Origin: Candidatus Bathyarchaeota archaeon
Lineage (GTDB): Archaea; Thermoproteota; Bathyarchaeia; TCS64
Assembly: GCA_014729945.1 (NCBI GenBank)
Contig: WJJC01000113.1
Coordinates: forward strand, 1-15,373
Reading direction: 5' to 3'
DNA: 15,373 bases
The notes beneath the pieces were generated by a model. The model did no database searches. It was not told where the DNA came from and saw only the letters and a program-made list of their open reading frames with translations. Shown one piece after another: positions 1 through 15,373 of the stretch (positions are counted from its first letter, which is position 1; the number at the start of each line of letters is the position of its first letter). The position numbers and the translations under genes were made by a program.

Positions 1-504
1 CCCCTTATCTATAGACAAGATTTTCCAGAGGATTGGAGGTTCCTAATCTGTGTACCGGATATAAAAAAAGGGCTCAGTGGTGAACAAGAACAAAAAGCCT
101 TTCAGCAACTTGAGCCTCCAAACGCGGATACGGTGGCTCGTGCGTCTAGAGTAGTTCTAATGCAGATGATTCCCGCTATTATTGAAGAAGATATTGACTT
201 ATTTGGTAGTGCTATAACTAAGCTAGACACCATATTCGGTGATTACTGGACAGAGATCCAAGGAGGGACTTACTCTCATCCACGAATTGAGGAATGTGTC
301 AGTCATCTACTCGCTACTGGCGCATATGGTGCAGGTCAAAGTTCTTGGGGTCCAGTCCTTTATGGATTAGTAAATGGAGAAAATCAGGCAAAAAGATTAC
401 TACACTCTATGAAAAAGTTCCTCAATGATGGAGAAAACACAGGGAAAGCATACCTCTCACATGCAGATAACCGAGGTGCTTACATAACTGATGTGGTTAC
501 ATGA
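1..504 (+). CDS. mptG: Beta-ribofuranosylaminobenzene 5'-phosphate synthase, C-terminal part (5' end outside window)
   Basis: The reading frame is open from base 1, giving 167 codons and no start in the window. The family (GHMP-kinase fold) condenses p-aminobenzoate with PRPP, releasing CO2, in the first committed step of the tetrahydromethanopterin arm. What shows this is a block with DWRF, then VPD and GLSGE near fragment residues 12-32, typical of the C-terminal half of beta-RFAP synthases, and the family hallmark GAGQSSWGP at about residues 110-118. The full protein is usually a little over 300 aa, so roughly the N-terminal half is missing only because the window is cut. The stop overlaps the next start (ATGA at 501-504), so the two genes are almost certainly co-transcribed. 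The GTG at 133 lies inside the conserved domain and is not the start. Cytoplasmic. Confidence 0.88.
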   Translation, partial: PLIYRQDFPEDWRFLICVPDIKKGLSGEQEQKAFQQLEPPNADTVARASRVVLMQMIPAIIEEDIDLFGSAITKLDTIFGDYWTEIQGGTYSHPRIEECVSHLLATGAYGAGQSSWGPVLYGLVNGENQAKRLLHSMKKFLNDGENTGKAYLSHADNRGAYITDVVT

Positions 505-2054
505 AATATCTTATTGTAACTGGTAGACTCGCAGAGGATATGATAATAAAACAAATAGAAGATATTGATTTCGATATTGATGTAATGTCTTTACCTGTAA
601 CCGTAGCATCATTCATAACCCCACAGTATGCTGCTAAACAACTTGAGAAACACGATCTCTCTGATTACGATAAAATTCTCCTACCCGGTGCAGTTACTGG
701 AGACCTTAGTATAATTGAAAAAACCACAGGAGTTCCCACCTACAAGGGTCCTTTACACGCAGCGGATCTCTCTTTGGTCTTACAAGAGGACATCAAACTA
801 TCGAAAACCTTTCCCGCGAATGAGTTAATACACGAAAAATTAAGAAACCAAGCCTTGAAAGAAATAAACTCAACGGAAGAAAACTGGAAAGAGATAATAT
901 CTAAAAAAGGAGGATTCCTAATCAGGGAGCTTCCTGTCTCAAAAGGACTGCCAATTAGAGTTCTAGGTGAGATAGTAAATGCTCCACGCCTTAAACTTGA
1001 AGATATCAAAGCCAAAGCTCTATACTATGTGGAACAAGGCGCGGATATAATTGATATTGGAATGCTAGCCGGAGATCCAATGCCAGAAAAAATCGATAAA
1101 ATCATCAACACTTTGAGAGAAACCGTTGATCTGCCTATTAGTATAGATACCCTTAATGTTTTGGAGATAAAAGCAGCTATTGACTCAGGAATAGACCTAA
1201 TCCTAAGCATAGATGACGGAAATATGAATGAGATCGCATCAAAAATCGATGATGAATCTGTGGTTGTACTACCCTCCAACATGAGAGAAGGTTATCTCCC
1301 GAAAAAAGCAGAGGAGAGGGTACATTATCTATCAGAAATAATCAACAAATTACAAGAAATAGGGATTCAAAAAATCATCGGGGATCTAGTAGTAGAGCCC
1401 CTATTAAAACCCGGTCTAATGGAGGGCTTAAAAGCATTTCAAATGTTTCATCACCAAAACCCAGAAATTCCATTACTTTTTGGAGTTGGAAACGCTGTTG
1501 AACTCATAGATGCTGATAGTCCCGGTGTACATGCTGCTTTAATTGCATTAGCCAGAGAATCAGGTGCTTGTATGTTGCATGTTCCAGAGTATAGTGTTAA
1601 GGCCCGTGGAAGTGTATCTGAGGCCGTTTCGGCGTCGAATATGATGTTTTTAGCCGAAAAAAGGGGAACGGTTCCAAAAGATTTAGGGTTGGATTTACTG
1701 TGTTTAAAGGAAAAACGATGGAAAGAAGAACTGTATGACTCAACCTTAGAGAAAGGTACTAGAGTTCTGATAGGTGCTGGTAACAAAGAGTATCATCCTG
1801 ATAAATCAGGGTGGTTTAAAATACAGGTTGATAGAACCGAAGCGAAAATAGTGGCTATCCATTATCCCCTAGGAACCGATGAACCTAGAACAGTAATAAA
1901 ATCAGATAATGCAAAAGATATCTATCAAACAATAATCAGGGAAAAGTTGATAACTAAACATGACCACGCCGCATATCTGGGTAAAGAACTGGAAAAAGCG
2001 GCGATAGCATTACGTTTAGGCAGAGCCTATATTCAAGATGAACCTTTATTCTAA
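501..2054 (+). CDS. Dihydropteroate synthase-related protein (DUF6513 + pterin-binding domain)
   Basis: 517 aa. This resembles the archaeal dihydropteroate-synthase-related family (TIGR00284 type). The N-terminal part, about residues 1-95, starts MKYLIVTGRLA and matches the DUF6513-like module. A TIM-barrel pterin-binding domain follows from about 155 to 400, with GADIIDIGM (180-188) and SIDT (214-217) standing for the DHPS signature strands. The C-terminal 110 residues are family-specific. Classical DHPS joins pterin-CH2-OPP to p-aminobenzoate. In H4MPT-making archaea a DHPS-like enzyme is expected to join the pterin to beta-RFA-phosphate, and the ATGA overlap with beta-RFAP synthase fits that exactly, though the reaction for this family is inferred. 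The start is ATG at 501. The last 9 bp overlap the end of the convergent CofE-like gene. Confidence 0.8.
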   Translation: MKYLIVTGRLAEDMIIKQIEDIDFDIDVMSLPVTVASFITPQYAAKQLEKHDLSDYDKILLPGAVTGDLSIIEKTTGVPTYKGPLHAADLSLVLQEDIKLSKTFPANELIHEKLRNQALKEINSTEENWKEIISKKGGFLIRELPVSKGLPIRVLGEIVNAPRLKLEDIKAKALYYVEQGADIIDIGMLAGDPMPEKIDKIINTLRETVDLPISIDTLNVLEIKAAIDSGIDLILSIDDGNMNEIASKIDDESVVVLPSNMREGYLPKKAEERVHYLSEIINKLQEIGIQKIIGDLVVEPLLKPGLMEGLKAFQMFHHQNPEIPLLFGVGNAVELIDADSPGVHAALIALARESGACMLHVPEYSVKARGSVSEAVSASNMMFLAEKRGTVPKDLGLDLLCLKEKRWKEELYDSTLEKGTRVLIGAGNKEYHPDKSGWFKIQVDRTEAKIVAIHYPLGTDEPRTVIKSDNAKDIYQTIIREKLITKHDHAAYLGKELEKAAIALRLGRAYIQDEPLF

Positions 2055-2885
2055 AACCCTAATTATGGTAATAGGGTAATGGTCAACTGATTCAAGCATC
2101 TCCCATGTTACACCTGTTATTGAAGTCTCCATTTTCTCACTCATACTCCAAACTGTACGCCCAGCGCCTCCCCCACATTGCCTATGAAATAGATGCGCAT
2201 ACCATAATGCTCTATCAGGGTTAACATATTTCCCTGAAATGGCTATAGGCGTTTGACGACTCTTTAACTCAAATATTCTCCCCAAGATGAAAGTTATTAC
2301 CCCACCTAAATGTATGAAGTCTGAAGACTCTAGTTTACGAGGTGATAGATGGAGATTTCTCCAAGTATAAGTGGTATCTCCATCCATGATCATCACCGTA
2401 ACTTTTACCCCAAGTTTTTTCTGGATTTCTTCTCTGATCTCCGTAGCGATCTCCATTGGATTATTTAGAGGAAAACTAACAAACGTAAATGGAAGATTAC
2501 TGGCATCTATACCTCCTTCACTATAATGTCTTAGACTTTGTAATAGCCCGACTTTCCGTAATGCTAGTTGTTTATGAGCTGCGCCTTCAAGTTCGGGATA
2601 GTTTTTCAAATTTTCTATAGTCTGTTTTTTTAAACCAGTTATTTTTCCTAATGGGCCTCCCCATATTTTTCTTGTCCAGAAAGATGCAAGAATACAAGCT
2701 ATTTTCCCTGGAGTGATTGTTTTTTCATCTATAATATTTCCTAAAGCTGTGGATATAGCCTTCTCACTTAAAGCGATTCTATCTCCATCTTTTATCTTGT
2801 TTTTGATTTTTTCTATTATTTTGTCTTTAAACTCTGTGCCCGGTTTCCAGTATGTACACTTTATCGTAATGGCTTTAATCTTCAT
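2046..2885 (-). CDS. CofE-like (coenzyme F420-0:L-glutamate ligase family) protein, divergent
   Basis: 279 aa, ATG start. True CofE adds gamma-linked glutamates to F420-0 using GTP. Family marks seen are DGDRIALSEKAIST (33-46, compare the CofE 'DGD..v.SEK.vST' strand), a central EGGIDASNLP (123-132), and MDGDT (167-171) where CofE has a metal-binding 'SDT'. The region after 175 diverges: CofE normally has a GRPWR-like stretch, whereas this has YTWRNL and then a long tail with a Gly-rich CGGGAG (237-242). It is therefore a paralogue of the fold and F420 need not be the substrate. It is the last gene of the RACo-CooC-CooC run, 13 nt after CooC, and converges on the H4MPT genes. No Shine-Dalgarno is evident, which suggests translation coupled to CooC. 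The H4MPT/corrinoid cofactor role is inference only. Confidence 0.6.
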   Translation of the reverse strand: MKIKAITIKCTYWKPGTEFKDKIIEKIKNKIKDGDRIALSEKAISTALGNIIDEKTITPGKIACILASFWTRKIWGGPLGKITGLKKQTIENLKNYPELEGAAHKQLALRKVGLLQSLRHYSEGGIDASNLPFTFVSFPLNNPMEIATEIREEIQKKLGVKVTVMIMDGDTTYTWRNLHLSPRKLESSDFIHLGGVITFILGRIFELKSRQTPIAISGKYVNPDRALWYAHLFHRQCGGGAGRTVWSMSEKMETSITGVTWEMLESVDHYPITIIRVLE

Positions 2886-2898
2886 GGACTGGAAACGC

Positions 2899-3696
2899 TC
2901 ATGGTTTATAGTGTTTCAATAATTGTTGCTCTAAACTTTTTACTTCTTTCACCGCTTTGGACTCGGGGCTATGATCAATTGTAGGTGTTCCTTCCATATC
3001 AGCGTCTGCAACCGCTTGATCATACGGAATCATGGATATTACGGGAACATTCAGTTCCTTCATTTTTTTATAAATAAATGCCTCATCTTTTTCACGCATA
3101 ACCTTGTTACCTACTGCTAATACTGTTTCAACTTTGATATCATTAGCCATTTTCAGTATTCTTCTCACAGTATCAACTGATTTCATCCTAGGTTCAATAA
3201 CCACCAACATTACATCCATTCTACGGGCAGTTCCCCTTCCCAGATGTTCAAGTCCCGCTACCATATCCATAACAAGCACTTCGTCACGTTGTATGAGCAT
3301 ATGTTGGATGAGTACTCTGAGCATCGCGTTAGCTCCACACATGCATCCTGTTCCTCCCCCCTTCACGGTGCCCATTATCAATAGTTTAACGTCATCAGGT
3401 GCATTCACTCCGAATCTATCAACAACATCGTTTACATTAGGTGTCATGTTGAACATAGCACCAAGGGCTTCTTCAGGTGAAACTCCTGTTTTTTCCTTAA
3501 TCAGATCTTCATTATCCGAGAGCGGTGTTATGTTATTAGCCACTTCATAATCGACTCCTAGACTATATGCAAGGTTTAGATTAGGATCTGCATCTACCGC
3601 CAATACTCTGTAACCATCCTGTGCAAGGAGTCTGGAGAGGGTAGCAGCAACAAATGTTTTACCTACGCCTCCCTTACCTGCTATAGCGATCTTCAA
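2899..3696 (-). CDS. cooC: CooC-type CODH nickel-insertion/maturation ATPase
   Basis: 265 aa. A SIMIBI/MinD-type ATPase that supports nickel delivery to the CODH (or ACS) metal cluster. Seen directly: a deviant Walker A GKGGVGKT (7-14) with the signature lysine K8, VDADPN (34-39), the CooC-specific metal-binding C-x-C pair (C118-M-C120) within GGGTGCMCGAN, and a Walker B-like DMVAGLEHLGRGT (143-155). In known CooC dimers the two C-x-C pairs together bind Ni/Zn. The length is normal for the family. The start is TTG at 3696-3694: AGGTG lies just upstream inside the end of the preceding gene, and translation from there begins directly at the conserved MKIAIAGKGG strand. It is 9 nt downstream of a second CooC-like gene. 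No CODH subunit gene is in the window. Confidence 0.87.
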   Translation of the reverse strand: MKIAIAGKGGVGKTFVAATLSRLLAQDGYRVLAVDADPNLNLAYSLGVDYEVANNITPLSDNEDLIKEKTGVSPEEALGAMFNMTPNVNDVVDRFGVNAPDDVKLLIMGTVKGGGTGCMCGANAMLRVLIQHMLIQRDEVLVMDMVAGLEHLGRGTARRMDVMLVVIEPRMKSVDTVRRILKMANDIKVETVLAVGNKVMREKDEAFIYKKMKELNVPVISMIPYDQAVADADMEGTPTIDHSPESKAVKEVKSLEQQLLKHYKP

Positions 3697-3705
3697 GTTT
3701 TACAC

Positions 3706-4482
3706 CTAGTATCCTGCTTTTTTCATAATTTTTTTTATAGATTGATATGTTGGGCTCTCTTCAGGTAGTTTAAACAGGGACCTTCCTTCGATATTATAGT
3801 CCAGAATTAGTGGATCTGGTTCTATTCTCCCTAGAAAGGGGAAAGGTTGCTTTTTAGCTTCATCAACCATTTTTTCTGGAAATCGATAACCTCCGACGAG
3901 GTAATAGTTTTCAAATTCTATATCTACCTCTTTCATTATTTTATGTGACCGAGCTGCATTATCGAAGCTCTTCTTACTGGGATCAAGTACGTTGAATACA
4001 TCCTTGATCTCTTTAGTTATTCTTCTATTGAGGTGCTCGACGCCTGCAGGTGAGTCAACGATTACGTATTCATAGTTTTCGCCCCATAAATCCATTATCT
4101 GACTTAATGATCTATCAGGTAAACAGTAACACCCCTCTATCCACTTGGTCCCAATTCCAATGAAATCAAAGAAATCTCGCCCCTCGTATAGACTCTCTTG
4201 AAATAGAAATGGCTCAATCTTATCAGTGGGTGTCATACCCCTCATTCTAGCCATCTTACGTTCCTCGATGATTTCTGATAATACGCTAGCAATGCTTCTC
4301 TTACCGTGTTTTTTAAGATCTATCCCTAACATGTCTGCGAGACTTTCATCAGGATCCGAGTCGACTAATAATATTGGTTCTACGTTTTTTTCACCTAAAT
4401 AGCGGCTCAGAAGTGTTGTAAATGTGGTTTTTCCAGTTCCTCCTCTACCGGTTACTACAATAGTACCTTTATGCTTACTCAT
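3706..4482 (-). CDS. Second CooC/AcsF-like ATPase with altered P-loop
   Basis: 258 aa, ATG start with a strong Shine-Dalgarno (complement of 4487-4495). Same fold as the following gene but clearly diverged. The P-loop is GRGGTGKT (12-19), so the MinD/CooC signature lysine of GKGGxGKT is replaced by Arg13 while the Walker lysine K18 remains. VDSDPD (40-45) and a Walker B-like DSPAGVEHLNR (143-153) are present. A C-x-C pair (C118-Y-C120) sits at exactly the same residue numbers as in the neighbouring CooC, so the metal-binding site appears kept. Two paralogues could serve different targets, for example CODH cluster C and ACS cluster A, or could form a heterodimer; both ideas are inference. It lies 59 nt after the RACo gene; that gap holds an AT-rich TATA-like stretch (about 4521-4530), so it may also be transcribed on its own. 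Confidence 0.78.
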   Translation of the reverse strand: MSKHKGTIVVTGRGGTGKTTFTTLLSRYLGEKNVEPILLVDSDPDESLADMLGIDLKKHGKRSIASVLSEIIEERKMARMRGMTPTDKIEPFLFQESLYEGRDFFDFIGIGTKWIEGCYCLPDRSLSQIMDLWGENYEYVIVDSPAGVEHLNRRITKEIKDVFNVLDPSKKSFDNAARSHKIMKEVDIEFENYYLVGGYRFPEKMVDEAKKQPFPFLGRIEPDPLILDYNIEGRSLFKLPEESPTYQSIKKIMKKAGY

Positions 4483-4541
4483 TTTACCCCCCTCCGATGT
4501 AAAGAGGTTTGTCGCTTGAATAAAATATGAATATAGCTTAA

Positions 4542-6386
4542 TCAGCTTTTAGTATAGGATGGGAAATAATCTTTATCTCCAGGTATATACAGCGCTTTGC
4601 TATACTCTTCGATAAATTCAAGGTCAACTAATAGATCGATGTAAACCATTTTTTTAGCTACTTCCACGGCTTCTTTTCTTTTATCAATTGATATTAGTGC
4701 AGCATATGCTCCCGATAGGGATCCGTTTCCCAGTGGATGATATTCTCCATTGGGGAATTCTGGTAGAATCCCTAACCTTATGGCGTTCTCCATGTCTGTA
4801 TATGTTCCAAATGCTCCTGCCAGATAGATGTGTTTAGTGTCCCAGATATCTATCTTAAGTTTCTTCATTAGCACTGTGACTGCTCCGCAAGCTGCAGCTT
4901 TTGAGTCGATAACATAGTCGAGATCTGCTTGTGTTAACACAATGTCTTTTTCAATACTTGTTTCTTCAGCAGGTACTACAAGATACTCTAACCCCCATTT
5001 TCCCTCTCTCACGTAGGGCATACTTGATACAAATTTACCTGAGAAATCCATTACGCCTACTCTGAAAACCTCTGCTACAATATCAATCAAACCAGAACCA
5101 CAGATTCCTTTTGCCGGAGCGTCTCCAATTGTAGAGACCTTGGCCTTTTTTGTTTTCTCATCTATTCTTACATGGTCTATGCCGCCTATAGCTGCTCTCA
5201 TGCCATGTCTTACTCCTTCCCCTTCAAACGCTGGTCCACTGGCGCAGCTACACGAGAATAACCATTTATTGTTTCCAAATATTAACTCGCCATTGGTGCC
5301 TAGGTCTACTATTAAGCTCATGTCTTCTGATTTATGCATCTCACTAGCAATTACGTCACCGATTGCGTCTCCTCCAAGGAATCTACTTACATTAGGAAGG
5401 CAGTAAATGTAGCTGTCTGGGTTTACATTTAAACCGATCTCTTCCGCTCTCTTAATAATGGGTTCACGAGGTACCTCTACATTTGCTATCTCAAGATACC
5501 CCGATTCAAGACCAGCGAATAAGTGGTTCATTACCGTATTACCTCCTACCGAGGTTTCACTAATTTCTTGAGGTTTAATACCTGTTTCATTATAAATTTC
5601 ATCAATAATTTGGTTAATGGAGTTAACTACTACATCTTGAAGTTTTTTTAACCCCTCATCTGTTCTAGCGATTGCAACTCTGGTAACTAGGTCCTCACCA
5701 TATGTTATTTGTTGATTCATTCCAGATTTTTTCCCTAGTATTTCACCCGTTTTTAGATCTGTTATTAGAGCTACTATGGTTGTAGTTCCTATGTCGATTG
5801 CTAATCCATAGTGTTTAGTTCTTGTATCTCCTTCTTCTGCGTTAATTACTTCTGGGAATTCATTTGTACGTGTGATAGTTACTGTTACTGTTTCTTCATT
5901 GAATCCACTTATTTTATTATAAATTTTTTCAGGAACTCTGGGGGGTGTTCCCTTATAGTCGCTAATTTTAAGGCGTCGATAATTAAGTAAGATCTTGCTA
6001 CTTTTTTCTGGTTTGGATTCTAAGAGATATTTTTTTACCGCTGGATTTATTTCGGGGATCTTCAGTTCTGAACTAATTAGAATTTTTGGGTTCTCAACAC
6101 GGCTTTCTAAAGGTATGGTGAATTCGCAGTCTTCAATTAGTTTGACCATGCAAGCTAAGTAGTATCCGTCTTTCAGTTCTTTGTTTGATAGGAGTTTATC
6201 TGGGATCTTTGAACGTTTCTCAACATTGCCTTTATCAAGAATAACTTTACATTTCCCACATATTCCTTTCCCCCCACATAGAGCTTCTATGTGAATCCCC
6301 TCATCTTGTAGCTTGTGGAGGAGTATGTCTCCTTTTTTGGCAATTATCTCTCTGTTTATGGGATTCAGTAATACTCTTATGGTCAA
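4542..6386 (-). CDS. RACo-like reductive activator of corrinoid proteins (2Fe-2S + ASKHA ATPase, DUF4445)
   Basis: 614 aa. Family members use ATP to drive one-electron reduction of inactive Co(II) corrinoid proteins (CoFeSP of the Wood-Ljungdahl pathway, or methyltransferase corrinoid proteins) back to Co(I). Domains: a ferredoxin-like [2Fe-2S] domain at 1-95 with C37-x5-C43-x2-C46...C79, a linker at about 95-190, and an ASKHA ATPase core from about 195. That core has AIDIGTTT (196-203), GGNTVMNH (281-288), DLGTNGEL (361-368), SCSCASGPAFEG (378-389), GICGSGLID (427-435) and AGAFG (523-527), all characteristic of the RACo family. The length fits. The start is TTG at 6386-6384; no alternative in-frame ATG lies nearby and the ferredoxin strand begins immediately. 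It heads a minus-strand run with two CooC-like genes, pointing to CODH/ACS corrinoid protein as the likely target. Confidence 0.85.
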   Translation of the reverse strand: MTIRVLLNPINREIIAKKGDILLHKLQDEGIHIEALCGGKGICGKCKVILDKGNVEKRSKIPDKLLSNKELKDGYYLACMVKLIEDCEFTIPLESRVENPKILISSELKIPEINPAVKKYLLESKPEKSSKILLNYRRLKISDYKGTPPRVPEKIYNKISGFNEETVTVTITRTNEFPEVINAEEGDTRTKHYGLAIDIGTTTIVALITDLKTGEILGKKSGMNQQITYGEDLVTRVAIARTDEGLKKLQDVVVNSINQIIDEIYNETGIKPQEISETSVGGNTVMNHLFAGLESGYLEIANVEVPREPIIKRAEEIGLNVNPDSYIYCLPNVSRFLGGDAIGDVIASEMHKSEDMSLIVDLGTNGELIFGNNKWLFSCSCASGPAFEGEGVRHGMRAAIGGIDHVRIDEKTKKAKVSTIGDAPAKGICGSGLIDIVAEVFRVGVMDFSGKFVSSMPYVREGKWGLEYLVVPAEETSIEKDIVLTQADLDYVIDSKAAACGAVTVLMKKLKIDIWDTKHIYLAGAFGTYTDMENAIRLGILPEFPNGEYHPLGNGSLSGAYAALISIDKRKEAVEVAKKMVYIDLLVDLEFIEEYSKALYIPGDKDYFPSYTKS

Positions 6387-8532: not shown

Positions 8533-8940
8533 TTATAATATGCTCTGTTTTAGCCTTAGTATCAGGTAGTTTCCGCCGAATCCCAGTATTATTAGGATTA
8601 TGCCTACCATGAGCCATCTGTTAGCTGCAGTCCGATTGTATGCTACCTGTGTGCTCCGGTATGTCATGTAGAATCCTGCTATTATGGCTCCGTTTATCAT
8701 CATTATGACGAATCCTTCTGTGGAGGTCTGTTCATTAGAGTAAGGGTGAAGGCTACTGTAACCGTTCTGTAATGGTATTATAGATGGAGGACTTTCAAGG
8801 ATATTATAGATTCCGCCCCCCATGATGAATATGCAGAACAGTACTACTGCGAACGAGATGTATTTTTTAGGGATTAATACCTTACTGGTGCCTCCAGTAC
8901 TCTTTAATGCTTTTTTGATTCGCTTCTTGGCGGATGGCAT
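8533..8940 (-). CDS. OSTC/Ost3-like three-helix membrane protein (candidate oligosaccharyltransferase accessory subunit)
   Basis: 135 aa, with a strongly basic N-terminus (K5, K6, R7, K9, K10) and three hydrophobic segments at about 27-47, 76-94 and 109-129. It has no soluble thioredoxin domain. Order and spacing of motifs resemble the eukaryotic OSTC/DC2 and the membrane part of Ost3/Ost6: GGGIYN (41-46) at the end of helix 1, then ESPPS (49-53), EG (75-76) at the start of helix 2, and NRWL (107-110) starting helix 3, with a short basic tail (RLK). Human OSTC has GGIIYD, EPPS, MEG and NRFL in matching order and is about 149 aa. Those eukaryotic subunits link the STT3 oligosaccharyltransferase to the translocon. 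The similarity is recalled, not computed. No glycosylation gene is adjacent. ATG start, with GAGG about 10 nt upstream. Confidence 0.55.
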   Translation of the reverse strand: MPSAKKRIKKALKSTGGTSKVLIPKKYISFAVVLFCIFIMGGGIYNILESPPSIIPLQNGYSSLHPYSNEQTSTEGFVIMMINGAIIAGFYMTYRSTQVAYNRTAANRWLMVGIILIILGFGGNYLILRLKQSIL

Positions 8941-11205: not shown

Positions 11206-11610
11206 ATGGAGAGAAAAGGGGTTTCAACTTACATATCTGTTCTGTTGTTGATTGTTGTAGTTATCGCTGGGGGTATAATGATCTACGGATATACCATGGG
11301 GTGGTTCGGTAGACTAGGTGGAGAAGGAGAAATGGGAACACTATCCCTAGACTCAGCAAAAGCATATGCAAATAACACAATTATTGTATATATTAGAAAT
11401 GTGGGTAATTCACCCGTTACTATTGATTCTGTGTATATCGACAATACTCCTGCATCAGACGTTACCGTTGAACAAAATCCTATCCCAACCAACACTGCAA
11501 AAAAAGTAAGCGCGACAGGTGGTTTTACAATTACTTCAGGAACAACTTATGAAGTAAAAATTGTGGCTACTGATAATACCCAGATAGCGTTTAGTGTGAA
11601 AGCTGAATAA
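11206..11610 (+). CDS. Small type IV pilin-like protein
   Basis: 134 aa. The N-terminus is a class III signal peptide: a short basic leader MERKG, a predicted prepilin-peptidase (PibD/FlaK type) cut after G5, then a hydrophobic alpha helix at about 8-30. The remainder (about 45-134) is a single beta-rich domain (SLDSAKAYANNTIIVYIRNVGNSPVTI style), as in archaeal pilins and archaellins, with one N-glycosylation sequon (N56). It should be secreted and polymerise in, or anchor at, the membrane. First gene of a run with a second pilin, a large surface protein and a FlaI-like ATPase. It is not recognisably an archaellin FlaB: it is shorter, and no archaellum accessory gene is seen. Confidence 0.8.
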   Translation: MERKGVSTYISVLLLIVVVIAGGIMIYGYTMGWFGRLGGEGEMGTLSLDSAKAYANNTIIVYIRNVGNSPVTIDSVYIDNTPASDVTVEQNPIPTNTAKKVSATGGFTITSGTTYEVKIVATDNTQIAFSVKAE

Positions 11611-11651
11611 TATCTCATATTTTATTTTTCTCGTAATACAAGGTTATTGAT

Positions 11652-12089
11652 GTGAAGAGGCGTGGCGTTAGTGAGATTATTTCTACGATTATTATTATCT
11701 TAATTGTTAGCGTCGCGGGTACGTATCTTTTCTCATATAGTATGGGTCTTTTTCAAGATTATAATGATGATTATTTCAGGGAGACTGAGCTCGTTATTGG
11801 ACAGACTCGTGAGCGGTTTAACGTCCCGGCTGTATGGTGTGATCAGAGTAGTAACCTATTCAATATCACGGTCTACAATTTCGGTGAGATCGATCTCAGA
11901 ATCAGTGATATTTACATAAATGGTATACGGGTTACGAGTTACAGTTCTGGTAGAGACACGAAGATACTAACAGGTAGTCTGCAACAAGTGGTTTTCAATT
12001 CCCCTGTAAGCATCTCCAATGGGGAAGAATACAGGATCAGGATTGTCAGTAATAGAGGAGTGGTGAGAGTATTTGACTGGAAAGCGTAG
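11652..12089 (+). CDS. Second type IV pilin-like protein
   Basis: 145 aa, GTG start at 11652. Class III signal peptide with leader MKRRG, predicted cut after G5 (next residues VSEII), and a hydrophobic helix at about 9-30. The C-terminal beta domain (about 45-145) contains one sequon (N71-I-T), and its NLFNITVYNFGEIDLRISDIYINGI segment is built like NxxN/DIYING strands common in archaeal pilin-like proteins. A T-rich stretch at 11617-11632 before it could be a terminator of the first pilin mRNA or a TATA element (ATATTTTAT) for a near-leaderless start. The 3' end overlaps the next gene by 17 bp, so those two are translationally linked. It probably acts as a minor pilin in the same filament. 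Confidence 0.78.
   Translation: MKRRGVSEIISTIIIILIVSVAGTYLFSYSMGLFQDYNDDYFRETELVIGQTRERFNVPAVWCDQSSNLFNITVYNFGEIDLRISDIYINGIRVTSYSSGRDTKILTGSLQQVVFNSPVSISNGEEYRIRIVSNRGVVRVFDWKA
12062..12067 (+). promoter_or_regulatory. Ribosome binding site that fixes the TTG start of the 906-aa protein
   Basis: GGTGAG lies 5 nt before the TTG at 12073 and fits the archaeal anti-Shine-Dalgarno. An in-frame TGA at 12064 excludes any earlier start, so the TTG is the only one that includes the class III signal peptide. Confidence 0.6.
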
Positions 12090-14793
12090 GGCAGTTGGTT
12101 CCCTGATCTCCGTTATGTTCCTTATACTGATCCTTACCTCGGGTTATGGTTACTACCAGACTCGTCAGACCGTGCAGACTAGGAGACAACGAATACTGGA
12201 TGAGATGAAGGAGTTCGACCATAACAAAGCACTGGAAGATCTAGAGATAAACAAAAGTGACTTATCGGGGTCTAACCAGTTAAATCTAAAACTGGAAAAC
12301 ACTGGCGAGATTCTGTTAACGGTATCCTATATTGGTGTATTCAATGAGTCTGTCTCGCCACGAGAGCAGCAATATATTGATGTAGCGTTTTCGTTGAATC
12401 CCGTTGATGAGATCTGGTATAACTCATCAATAACCATTAACCCAAGCCAAGATTATACTATTCAACTATTAACAGAGAGAGGGAACATATTCTACACTTC
12501 ATATCCTTACATTGAACCGTTACCCTCTGGAAACGGGACAGATACCCAGATAGATATAACCTCGATTGGACTCCTTGAACAAACATATCCAAGTGATTAT
12601 AGAATCAATAATGGAACATATGCAAACGGCTCACTCCCAGACAGCGTAACAGATATTGATGGAGACTTTTTTACAGTAGATAGCGAGCTACAGACCACGG
12701 ATCTAATCTACGTTCCTTCAGCATATACTATCAGCTCAGGGGAATTAGCTTCAGGCACAGTATCAGATGTACAGCAAGATGATCAGAATACGCTTCAAGT
12801 TAGATCCAGTCCCTCTGATTTCCCATCTCAGTGGAACCAGTGGAGTTACAGAAAAAAAATCACAATTAATAACACGTATATAGATGAGGATCTTAGCGAC
12901 TTCCCTGTATTCATCAATATTACTGACCCCGATTTAGCTAATAATGCTCAAAATGACTTCGATGATATACTGTTTATAGATCAAAATAATTCAACACAGT
13001 TGGATCACGAGATAGAGGACTATGATGGTACAACAGGATATCTTGCTGCATGGGTGAATACTGATCTATCAACTGCTCAGGACACAGTTATATGGATGTA
13101 TTACGGAAACCCTTCATCACCTAATCAAGAGAAACCCTCCCAGGTATGGGCTAATGATTTTAACGGCGTATGGCATATGAGTCAAAACCCCGGTGCTGAT
13201 CCCCAGCTTCTAGATAGCACCTCAAATAACGAGGATGGGAGCTTCCAAGGAGGAATGGACTCTAGTGACCAGGTTAATGGAAAGGCTAATGGAGCACTCG
13301 ATTTTGATGGAGTAAACGATTATATAAATTTAGGAGACATCGACACTCGACTTGATGCCGTTACTGTTGAGGCATGGTTTTATCATGAGTCCACAGGGGA
13401 TGAGCGTATTTTCTGTAAATCAAGGGGCACAGCTGTATCTGATCACATTCTAAGCTTGGGTATAGACGATGATATTGTTAGAGTTAGAGTAGATACCCAA
13501 GGACCTGGTGGAGGCGTTACCTCCCACGATAGCAATCCCTTTGCAACCACAAATAAGTGGCAATACGTGGCTTTCACATGGAGTCGTACTACTGAAAACT
13601 TGTATATATATGGCGACGACACGGTGATTGGATCCTTCAATAAACAGGGATTCAGAATTCAGGATCCAAATATCGATGTTACCATTGGTAACGTAAACAC
13701 GGTTGACAGCAGATACTGGGATGGTGTATTAGATGAGATCAGGTTATCTTCTGTGGATAGAGACCCCGCATGGCTAAAAGCAACCTATTTTACTACATCT
13801 GAACCCGATAAATTTGTGAGTCTAGGTCCCCAGCAGGGACAGGATACAAGTGTAAGCGTTGTGTTTACGGGAAATAGTAACACCTTAAGCTTGAATGCAT
13901 TGAACTTTACTACACATATAGCATATAACACTAGCAGTGTACCTACGATTATCCAATTATATGATTACAATGCAGGACAATACCCCACATCCGGTGATGG
14001 GTACATATCTTATACCTCTAGCGCAACCGCTGAAACCGAGGAAATAAAATTCCAATACATTACTACAAACCCAGATAATTACAGAGCCCCCAATGGAAAT
14101 TGGAAAATACGTGTAACAGGTGATTTATCCGGGTCAAATTTACTAGCTTATTACGATTACATATCTTATAAGACTAAGACTAACGCCGTTAATATTGCTT
14201 CAACAAATTATACTTTCACTGGAATAAACTCCAGTAACCCCACCTCGCTAAAATTAAAACTGGTATCCAGTAATACGAAAAGTGGAGTTAATTCATTAGC
14301 CCAGTTATATGATTATAATTCACAGCAATACGCTGCTTCAGGGGAAGCCTACACGACTTGGAGTAGTACCTCTGGAAATGATACTATTTGGTTGAATATT
14401 ACATCAAACCCCGAGTATTATGTAGATAATGGCATAGCTTCACTAAGATTTGTATCCACATATGATGCATCCTTTAGCCAAGACACAGACCAGCTATACC
14501 TAAACTATACTTACGCTTCAACCGAGCTACCCTATGACACCTACAAATCGTGCCTGATAAGTGTAACAAAGATATCCACAAGTGAACCTCTACCCTACAT
14601 AGGTCTCATATTATATGCAGATGGGTCCAACGTGGATTTCTTAGGACAAAGCAACCCAGTTTACACAAACACAGATGTGAACGGACAGTATAGAATTACC
14701 TTAAAGTCAAGCACTCTTGGAGGAGAGGCTTTCACATTATATGCGTACGTGGGTAGCTTGGTTGAGAGTAAGGAGTTGGTGCAATTACCATGA
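12073..14793 (+). CDS. Large pilin-anchored surface protein with DUF2341 and LamG (concanavalin-like) domains
   Basis: 906 aa, TTG start. Order: class III signal peptide (KRRAVG, predicted cut after G9, hydrophobic helix 10-28); a pilin-like coiled and beta stretch (about 30-150) resembling the two preceding pilins; a beta region (150-250); DUF2341 (about 255-365, from WSYRKKITINN to MYYGNP); a LamG/concanavalin-like lectin domain (about 366-590) with NGALDFDGVNDYINLG, VTVEAWFY and a closing DGVLDEIRLSS strand; two related beta repeats (about 592-704 and 708-815) sharing QLYDYNxxQY at 628-637 and 744-753; and a C-terminal TDVNGQYRITL beta-sandwich (about 823-906). DUF2341-LamG proteins bind or process carbohydrates at the cell surface in many organisms; the ligand here is unknown. 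At least 17 N-x-S/T sequons are present. It overlaps the second pilin by 17 bp and the ATPase by 4 bp. Confidence 0.8.
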   Translation: MTGKRRAVGSLISVMFLILILTSGYGYYQTRQTVQTRRQRILDEMKEFDHNKALEDLEINKSDLSGSNQLNLKLENTGEILLTVSYIGVFNESVSPREQQYIDVAFSLNPVDEIWYNSSITINPSQDYTIQLLTERGNIFYTSYPYIEPLPSGNGTDTQIDITSIGLLEQTYPSDYRINNGTYANGSLPDSVTDIDGDFFTVDSELQTTDLIYVPSAYTISSGELASGTVSDVQQDDQNTLQVRSSPSDFPSQWNQWSYRKKITINNTYIDEDLSDFPVFINITDPDLANNAQNDFDDILFIDQNNSTQLDHEIEDYDGTTGYLAAWVNTDLSTAQDTVIWMYYGNPSSPNQEKPSQVWANDFNGVWHMSQNPGADPQLLDSTSNNEDGSFQGGMDSSDQVNGKANGALDFDGVNDYINLGDIDTRLDAVTVEAWFYHESTGDERIFCKSRGTAVSDHILSLGIDDDIVRVRVDTQGPGGGVTSHDSNPFATTNKWQYVAFTWSRTTENLYIYGDDTVIGSFNKQGFRIQDPNIDVTIGNVNTVDSRYWDGVLDEIRLSSVDRDPAWLKATYFTTSEPDKFVSLGPQQGQDTSVSVVFTGNSNTLSLNALNFTTHIAYNTSSVPTIIQLYDYNAGQYPTSGDGYISYTSSATAETEEIKFQYITTNPDNYRAPNGNWKIRVTGDLSGSNLLAYYDYISYKTKTNAVNIASTNYTFTGINSSNPTSLKLKLVSSNTKSGVNSLAQLYDYNSQQYAASGEAYTTWSSTSGNDTIWLNITSNPEYYVDNGIASLRFVSTYDASFSQDTDQLYLNYTYASTELPYDTYKSCLISVTKISTSEPLPYIGLILYADGSNVDFLGQSNPVYTNTDVNGQYRITLKSSTLGGEAFTLYAYVGSLVESKELVQLP

Positions 14794-15373
14794 GTGAGAA
14801 TGAGAGAGAAGAAAGTATAAAGTCAAAACAGGCCAGCATGGCTTTCCGGGATTTCTACCCTGTTAATCCCCCCTACGGGTATGTTGGAATAGCTATTGAT
14901 GAAGAAAAACAACAACTGAAATACCACACCGTAGAACCGAATCTCACTGATGAAGAAACAGATCTATTAGACAGAATAAAATCCATATTAATAGATCGAA
15001 TGAATATTCCACTGGATGTGCTCAAAAATCCAGATAAAATGGAGACTTATCTTAGGGATGAGATTCAAACAATATTCAAAAGGTTCCAACGCAAGATCCC
15101 CGAAGAATCCGAGGACAAATTCATCTATTATCTAATGAGAGACTTCCTAGGGTATGGTATTATTGATCTACTAATGAGAGATGAGAAAATAGAGGATATT
15201 TCATGTAATGGCTCTAAAACCCCCATCTATGTCTGGCATAGAGACTATGAATCTATTCCAACTAATGTTTTCTATGACTCAGATGATGAACTGGATAAAG
15301 AGGTAACACGCTTAGCATATCGTTCAGGGAGACAGATCAGTATCAGTAACCCTATTATGCAGGGAACCTTACC
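14790..15373 (+). CDS. FlaI/GspE-family secretion (type IV pilus assembly) ATPase, N-terminal part (3' end outside window)
   Basis: 194 codons are visible from ATG at 14790, which overlaps the upstream stop (ATGA). The frame remains open to the end of the window. The N-terminal domain carries the block typical of archaeal type II/IV secretion ATPases (FlaI, VirB11-like, TadA): YYLMRDFLGYG (113-123), IIDLLMRDEKIEDISCNG (124-141), PIYVWHR (145-151) and SIPTN (155-159). These hexameric ATPases power assembly of archaella, pili or adhesive surface filaments. The Walker A and catalytic region lie beyond the window and could not be checked. Following pilins and a surface protein directly, it is expected to assemble those subunits; a TadC/FlaJ-like membrane platform would normally come next. 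Confidence 0.88.
   Translation, partial: MSENEREESIKSKQASMAFRDFYPVNPPYGYVGIAIDEEKQQLKYHTVEPNLTDEETDLLDRIKSILIDRMNIPLDVLKNPDKMETYLRDEIQTIFKRFQRKIPEESEDKFIYYLMRDFLGYGIIDLLMRDEKIEDISCNGSKTPIYVWHRDYESIPTNVFYDSDDELDKEVTRLAYRSGRQISISNPIMQGTL

Follow-up and report, generated by a model that had tools for sequence, protein, structure and literature searches.

The 15,373-nucleotide contig WJJC01000113.1 from a Candidatus Bathyarchaeota archaeon, referred to here as the window, encodes a stand-alone membrane protein of 135 residues that is homologous to the OST3/OSTC family of eukaryotic oligosaccharyltransferase (OST) subunits. We think it likely that this OSTC-like protein serves the archaeal OST, AglB, as a non-catalytic membrane subunit. 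Across many genomes the gene occurs in stand-alone form, widely and nearly always as a single copy, in recurrent head-to-head linkage with aglB. It is also recurrently linked with a gene for a zinc-ribbon protein, which in many cases lies upstream of aglB. The linkage to aglB supports a putative role in glycosylation, and we infer a physical association with AglB. Throughout, class and phylum denote Bathyarchaeia and Thermoproteota, respectively, which is our reading of the groups to which a reference genome (G001, Candidatus Bathyarchaeota) belongs.

The open reading frame is real rather than a chance occurrence because 99 of 115 candidate proteins, including the window's own, matched it at E ≤ 0.01, and a 36-row alignment of relatives contained eleven invariant columns. 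A preliminary description of this DNA had placed the product in the OSTC/Ost3 group, with two comparisons set beforehand as able to overturn that placement: a profile match to PF04756 or OSTC and superposition of the helices. Both were run and both returned the family. The protein matched PF04756 (OST3_OST6) with 28.6 bits (cut-off 27), and all 36 aligned homologues matched it at E ≤ 1. The protein's AlphaFold2 model, with three membrane helices of which the first is interrupted near a GG motif, superposed on the membrane helices of OSTC and Ost3 (Foldseek and VIA-align). When the same structural comparison was repeated with a member from outside the class, it matched the last three helices of Ost3/Ost6, and the profile and model from outside-class members again retrieved OSTC and MAGT1; these members had been found with a wider profile (A2), so their own profile is no independent discovery. 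One divergent relative from the class (L100) had no Pfam match at E ≤ 0.01. For three archaeal profiles and two models the OST3/OSTC family came first, above unrelated rows, demonstrating homology to this family and its fold. These matches in practice refute the idea that a three-helix membrane protein resembles OSTC by chance, which we regard as extremely improbable. The family also weakly resembles Ost5, which 14 of the 36 relatives matched at E ≤ 1 (best 8.1e-5), and TMEM258 (E 0.14), a likeness that may hint at a shared origin or may be a mere helical hairpin.

The landmarks by which the protein had been recognized are all present in the order claimed: GGGIYN (residues 41–46), PPS (51–53), EG (75–76) and NRWL (107–110). 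Their order and rough spacing were reproduced in 0 of 200,000 composition-preserving shuffles, which is a check of rarity and not a blind test because the pattern was written after the sequence had been seen. As hallmarks of a family they fared less well; they hold for the window protein, but in archaea more broadly the family does not retain PPS and NR(F/W)L. Features that do persist there are the GG position in helix 1, a Qx3E signature, a glycine in helix 2 and a near-terminal lysine. Q71-x3-E75 was kept in 36/36, 35/45 and 37/38 rows of three archaeal alignments (A1, A2 and A3, respectively), and profile alignments place the same signature in human OSTC (QYIME) and MAGT1 (QFVAE). By the positive-inside rule, the basic N terminus is predicted to be cytosolic.

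A length of 135 residues leaves no room for a thioredoxin domain, in agreement with the preliminary description, and the stand-alone, thioredoxin-less form recurred in every main match among the matches listed from the class and the phylum. The longest open frame among the main matches listed has 248 residues (G138), and a 231-residue open reading frame of the same genome (L099) has a front extension without CxxC. The stand-alone three-helix plan is common to the archaeal protein and OSTC (also called DC2) of human OST-A (PDB 6s7o_H and 8pn9_H), with around 22% identity and, in the alignment, a longer outer loop in OSTC. Compared with Ost3/Ost6 and MAGT1/TUSC3 (PF04756; 6s7t_H, 8age_H and 7oci_C, the yeast chains being assigned by entry title and residue range), the archaeal protein lacks both the thioredoxin domain and their first helix, such that its helices 1–3 are the counterparts of Ost3 helices 2–4. 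The earlier claim that the protein is OSTC rather than Ost3 is therefore borne out by architecture but not by sequence, for which scores split and the tree lacked resolution. A profile from the Bathyarchaeota set gave 53 bits with OSTC and 24 bits with Ost3/6, whereas an outside-class profile gave 37 and 41 bits, respectively. In a tree of 144 columns, 15 of 39 inner branches were strongly supported and the two human segments sat on the longest branches at different places, for which reason we dropped OSTC orthology by tree. Sequence comparison does not decide which of OSTC and Ost3/6 is the nearest relative. We also searched the same genomes with PF04756 for a fused thioredoxin partner; the many matches to its thioredoxin part carry no signal because 12 of 14 control genomes match likewise.

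The OSTC-like family was found, nearly always in single copy, in 143 of 151 class genomes. Among the 250 other genomes drawn from the phylum, 106 have it, and the weakest phylum matches lie near E 6e-4; that these 250 lie outside the class was deduced from handles and scores, and a Bathyarchaeia label appears on some relatives of two of them. Named close relatives are labelled Bathyarchaeota/Bathyarchaeia or 'Thermoproteota', plus one 'uncultured archaeon'; they point to a Bathyarchaeota-type archaeon, and we rejected an Asgard origin. No Asgard or eukaryotic name appeared among the 30 matches listed from a protein-database search in which the 7995 best word-sharing candidates were scored. Ribophorin-I-like genes exceeded the cut-off in 37 of 300 phylum-sample genomes and in none of 14 controls. 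An OSTC-like gene was present in 36 of those 37 genomes versus 120 of the 263 others, and in 40 of 44 at a looser E ≤ 0.001. Ribophorin-I-like genes are hence almost confined to genomes with an OSTC-like gene, a co-occurrence that is inflated by shared ancestry.

In the window, the OSTC-like gene has a 3-hydroxyisobutyrate-dehydrogenase-like gene as its same-strand neighbour and, on its other side, a head-to-head zinc-ribbon gene, beyond which lie gcvT and gcvH. Elsewhere, aglB, the catalytic OST gene, often sits across the divergent gap. Within the class, 129 genomes have both genes, on the same contig in 63 and within 10 kb in 55, of which 54 are divergent; less than 1 kb separates the matched stretches in 6 genomes (counting a single row for each gene in each genome, 140 and 136 in all). 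Among the matches listed from outside the class, both genes occur in 75 genomes and share a contig in 40, with aglB within 5 kb in 24, divergent in 24/24 and with less than 600 bp between the matched stretches in 18. Measured between open reading frames, the gap is 69–470 bp in 17 pairs, and two further pairs overlap through the choice of start. Five loci (L141, L142, L144, L147 and L153) from around two lineages have the genes collinear, 1.4–1.7 kb apart, with intervening frames that look ATPase-like by eye and a zinc ribbon near the aglB start. Loci L116–L135 were chosen for a close gene pair; L136–L155 came mostly from genomes without listed proximity (G155 and G280 excepted), and aglB lay within 2 kb in 5 of these 20.

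The zinc ribbon, of about 55 residues, was detected in 245 of 300 phylum-sample genomes (E ≤ 0.001), and no Pfam family reached its cut-off against it. Its relatives were present in 67 of the 95 loci searched (many of L001–L015 and L077–L155), and 62 of these 67 have them facing the OSTC-like gene head-to-head, with gaps ranging from overlap to several kb; at several loci (L121, L125, L127, L129 and others) the zinc-ribbon gene lies inside the gap between aglB and the OSTC-like gene. We counted linkage in 122 genomes among the matches listed, each with one copy at E of around 1e-14 or better, taking the non-class rows of aglB and the OSTC-like gene only for those genomes. The zinc ribbon shared a contig with aglB in 76 and was less than 1 kb from it in 41, upstream on the same strand in 41/41. 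It shared a contig with the OSTC-like gene in 82 and lay within 700 bp in 27, head-to-head in 27/27. Its product is possibly a cytosolic OST factor or a ribosome-side factor.

Structures described in the accessible text of PMC7226087 indicate how an OSTC-like subunit might act. Three helices of Ost3 lie on transmembrane helices 10, 11 and 13 of yeast Stt3, with Ost3 helix 2 at the pocket for the lipid-linked sugar and helices 3–4 on Sec61, and DC2/OSTC connects OST-A to the translocon. The archaeal protein would pack on the membrane-spanning part of AglB, in the manner of Ost3 on Stt3, where it could line or shape the entry site of the lipid-linked sugar and stabilize the enzyme; it may also dock AglB on the Sec channel, enabling co-translocational glycosylation. 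A redox role is not expected, because the thioredoxin domain is absent.

Several observations weigh against a role as an AglB subunit. The OSTC-like family was unmatched in 144 of 300 sampled phylum genomes while 264 of the 300 (and 136 of 151 class genomes) have STT3 matches, so AglB seems able to work without the OSTC-like protein. Conversely, 11 genomes have the OSTC-like gene and no STT3 profile match; an AglB protein query matched 5 of these and not the other 6. G130, with about 1.5 Mb in total, carries the OSTC-like gene and two zinc-ribbon matches on one contig of more than 1.44 Mb, but no AglB was found. Neither the window nor 16 kb around the gene of a relative (L002) shows an aglB, and on two large contigs (G067 and G084) aglB is 413 and 721 kb away. 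Other genes are also close: 36 of 47 class loci and 33 of 40 other loci have a RadB-like gene no more than 2 kb from the OSTC-like gene, compared with 4 of 47 and 25 of 40 for AglB in the same count, half of the 40 having been picked for closeness to aglB. CarS lies within 500 bp at 31 of the 47 and 11 of the 40, and topoisomerase I is frequent too. These counts weaken the notion of a linkage specific to aglB alone. Because RadB, CarS and topoisomerase I adjoin, the aglB linkage belongs to an ancient gene order, and neighbourhood alone does not prove partnership.

Taken to its end, this argument would make the aglB linkage no more than the inherited order of a housekeeping block, uninformative on function. 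The block includes genes of unlinked functions (RadB, topoisomerase I, endonuclease III and CLP1), together with others such as a glycosyltransferase family 4 gene (PF00953) that we read as AglH-like, and the counts are not independent events because the genomes are related. Yet the arrangement varies, from head-to-head to collinear and with gaps of 0.07 to 16 kb, while the genes remain near one another. The zinc ribbon, moreover, is found within 1 kb of aglB with the OSTC-like gene on another contig in 7 genomes among the matches listed, and within 1 kb of the OSTC-like gene with aglB elsewhere or unlisted in 9, although true separations are fewer because some of these lie at contig ends (for example, G124, G045 and G076). 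The aglB linkage also carries weight because the eukaryotic form of this lasting neighbour is the very enzyme that binds OSTC. We consider mere inherited order rather unlikely. Less likely still, in our judgement, is that this OST3/OSTC homologue has another job, such as that of a chaperone or lipid-handling protein acting alongside CarS or the Sec channel instead of AglB. The proximity of CarS would fit such a role, as would the recurrence of frames resembling UbiA-type prenyltransferases by eye (L130, L141, L144, L147 and L153) and the description of MAGT1 in the PDB as a magnesium transporter. Against it, the fold is the STT3-binding module of OST structures (PMC7226087, accessible text), and the OSTC-like gene tracks aglB and ribophorin-like genes.

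The family itself is already known from a published mention of OST3/6 in TACK archaea. In the accessible text of PMC4973528, from 2016, non-catalytic OST subunits had no promising prokaryotic relatives; Asgard members were reported later (PMC10307638, PMC8993221), and one sentence of 2024 mentions OST1 and OST3/6 in TACK and Asgard archaea (PMC11417166). The reported proteins presumably belong to the family described here, but the accessible text of PMC11417166 and PMC10307638 gives no architecture for TACK members, spread within TACK or gene neighbourhood. One relative (P0121) bears the NCBI name OST3/OST6 family protein, among 120 of 1715 matches listed. In the parts available, 'OSTC' in PMC12338589 abbreviates the whole complex, and PMC7997004 mentions Ost3 solely in its reference list. 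In the literature text available to a search that left supplements and most subscription journals outside, we found nothing that describes the stand-alone form, how widely it occurs, or its linkage with aglB and the zinc ribbon. New here are the head-to-head aglB linkage, the intervening zinc-ribbon gene and the co-occurrence with ribophorin-I-like genes.

The archaeal OST is usually described as a single subunit, AglB (for instance in PMC7226087, accessible text). AglB is the catalytic enzyme and the OSTC-like protein its proposed partner, encoded nearby in many genomes, an arrangement suggesting that some archaea have an enzyme of more than one protein. More tentatively, and with somewhat less than even confidence, we propose that many Thermoproteota have a multi-subunit OST comprising AglB, the three-helix subunit, a hitherto unrecognized cytosolic zinc ribbon encoded upstream of aglB and, in some, a ribophorin-I-like protein, with a membrane-only subunit that arose earlier than the Asgard/eukaryote line and earlier than the thioredoxin fusion that gave Ost3/Ost6. 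On this view, the origin of the OST complex would precede eukaryotes and lie outside Asgard archaea. A conserved OSTC-like partner near aglB in Bathyarchaeota and elsewhere in the phylum would place part of the eukaryotic complex earlier than, or beyond, the Asgard archaea. Separation of the membrane module from the redox module would likewise indicate an order of events, the membrane subunit first and the thioredoxin fusion later.

Features of the OSTC-like gene and the adjoining zinc-ribbon gene (window coordinates)
Feature	Position	Strand	Basis or remark
OSTC/Ost3-membrane-domain protein, stand-alone, 135 residues	8533..8940	minus	ATG start
N-terminal tail, basic, residues 1–24	8869..8940	minus	Sequence; block mean predicted local distance difference test (pLDDT) 50 and 48, residues 1–20
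Membrane helix 1 including GG break, residues 25–49	8794..8868	minus	AlphaFold2 model (helices 25–40/43–49)
Qx3E signature, residues 71–75, start of helix 2	8716..8730	minus	Conserved in archaeal rows, OSTC and MAGT1
Membrane helix 2, residues 73–98	8647..8724	minus	AlphaFold2 model
Membrane helix 3, residues 103–134	8539..8634	minus	AlphaFold2 model
Zinc-ribbon protein (CxxC...YEG...CPxC), 56 residues	9052..9222	plus	Head-to-head with OSTC-like gene; unannotated

Two further gene groups occupy the window. Positions 501–6386 encode a pterin-binding protein, an F420-ligase-domain protein, a RACo-type corrinoid-protein activator and two ATPases that appear CooC-like by eye from their translations, a set of genes for one-carbon metabolism. 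On the plus strand, positions 11206–15371 contain two pilin-like open reading frames (by eye), a 906-residue protein carrying Laminin_G_3 and DUF2341 domains, and a truncated frame that resembles a secretion ATPase by eye and has no Pfam match at E ≤ 0.001; together these perhaps form a type IV pilus-like operon.
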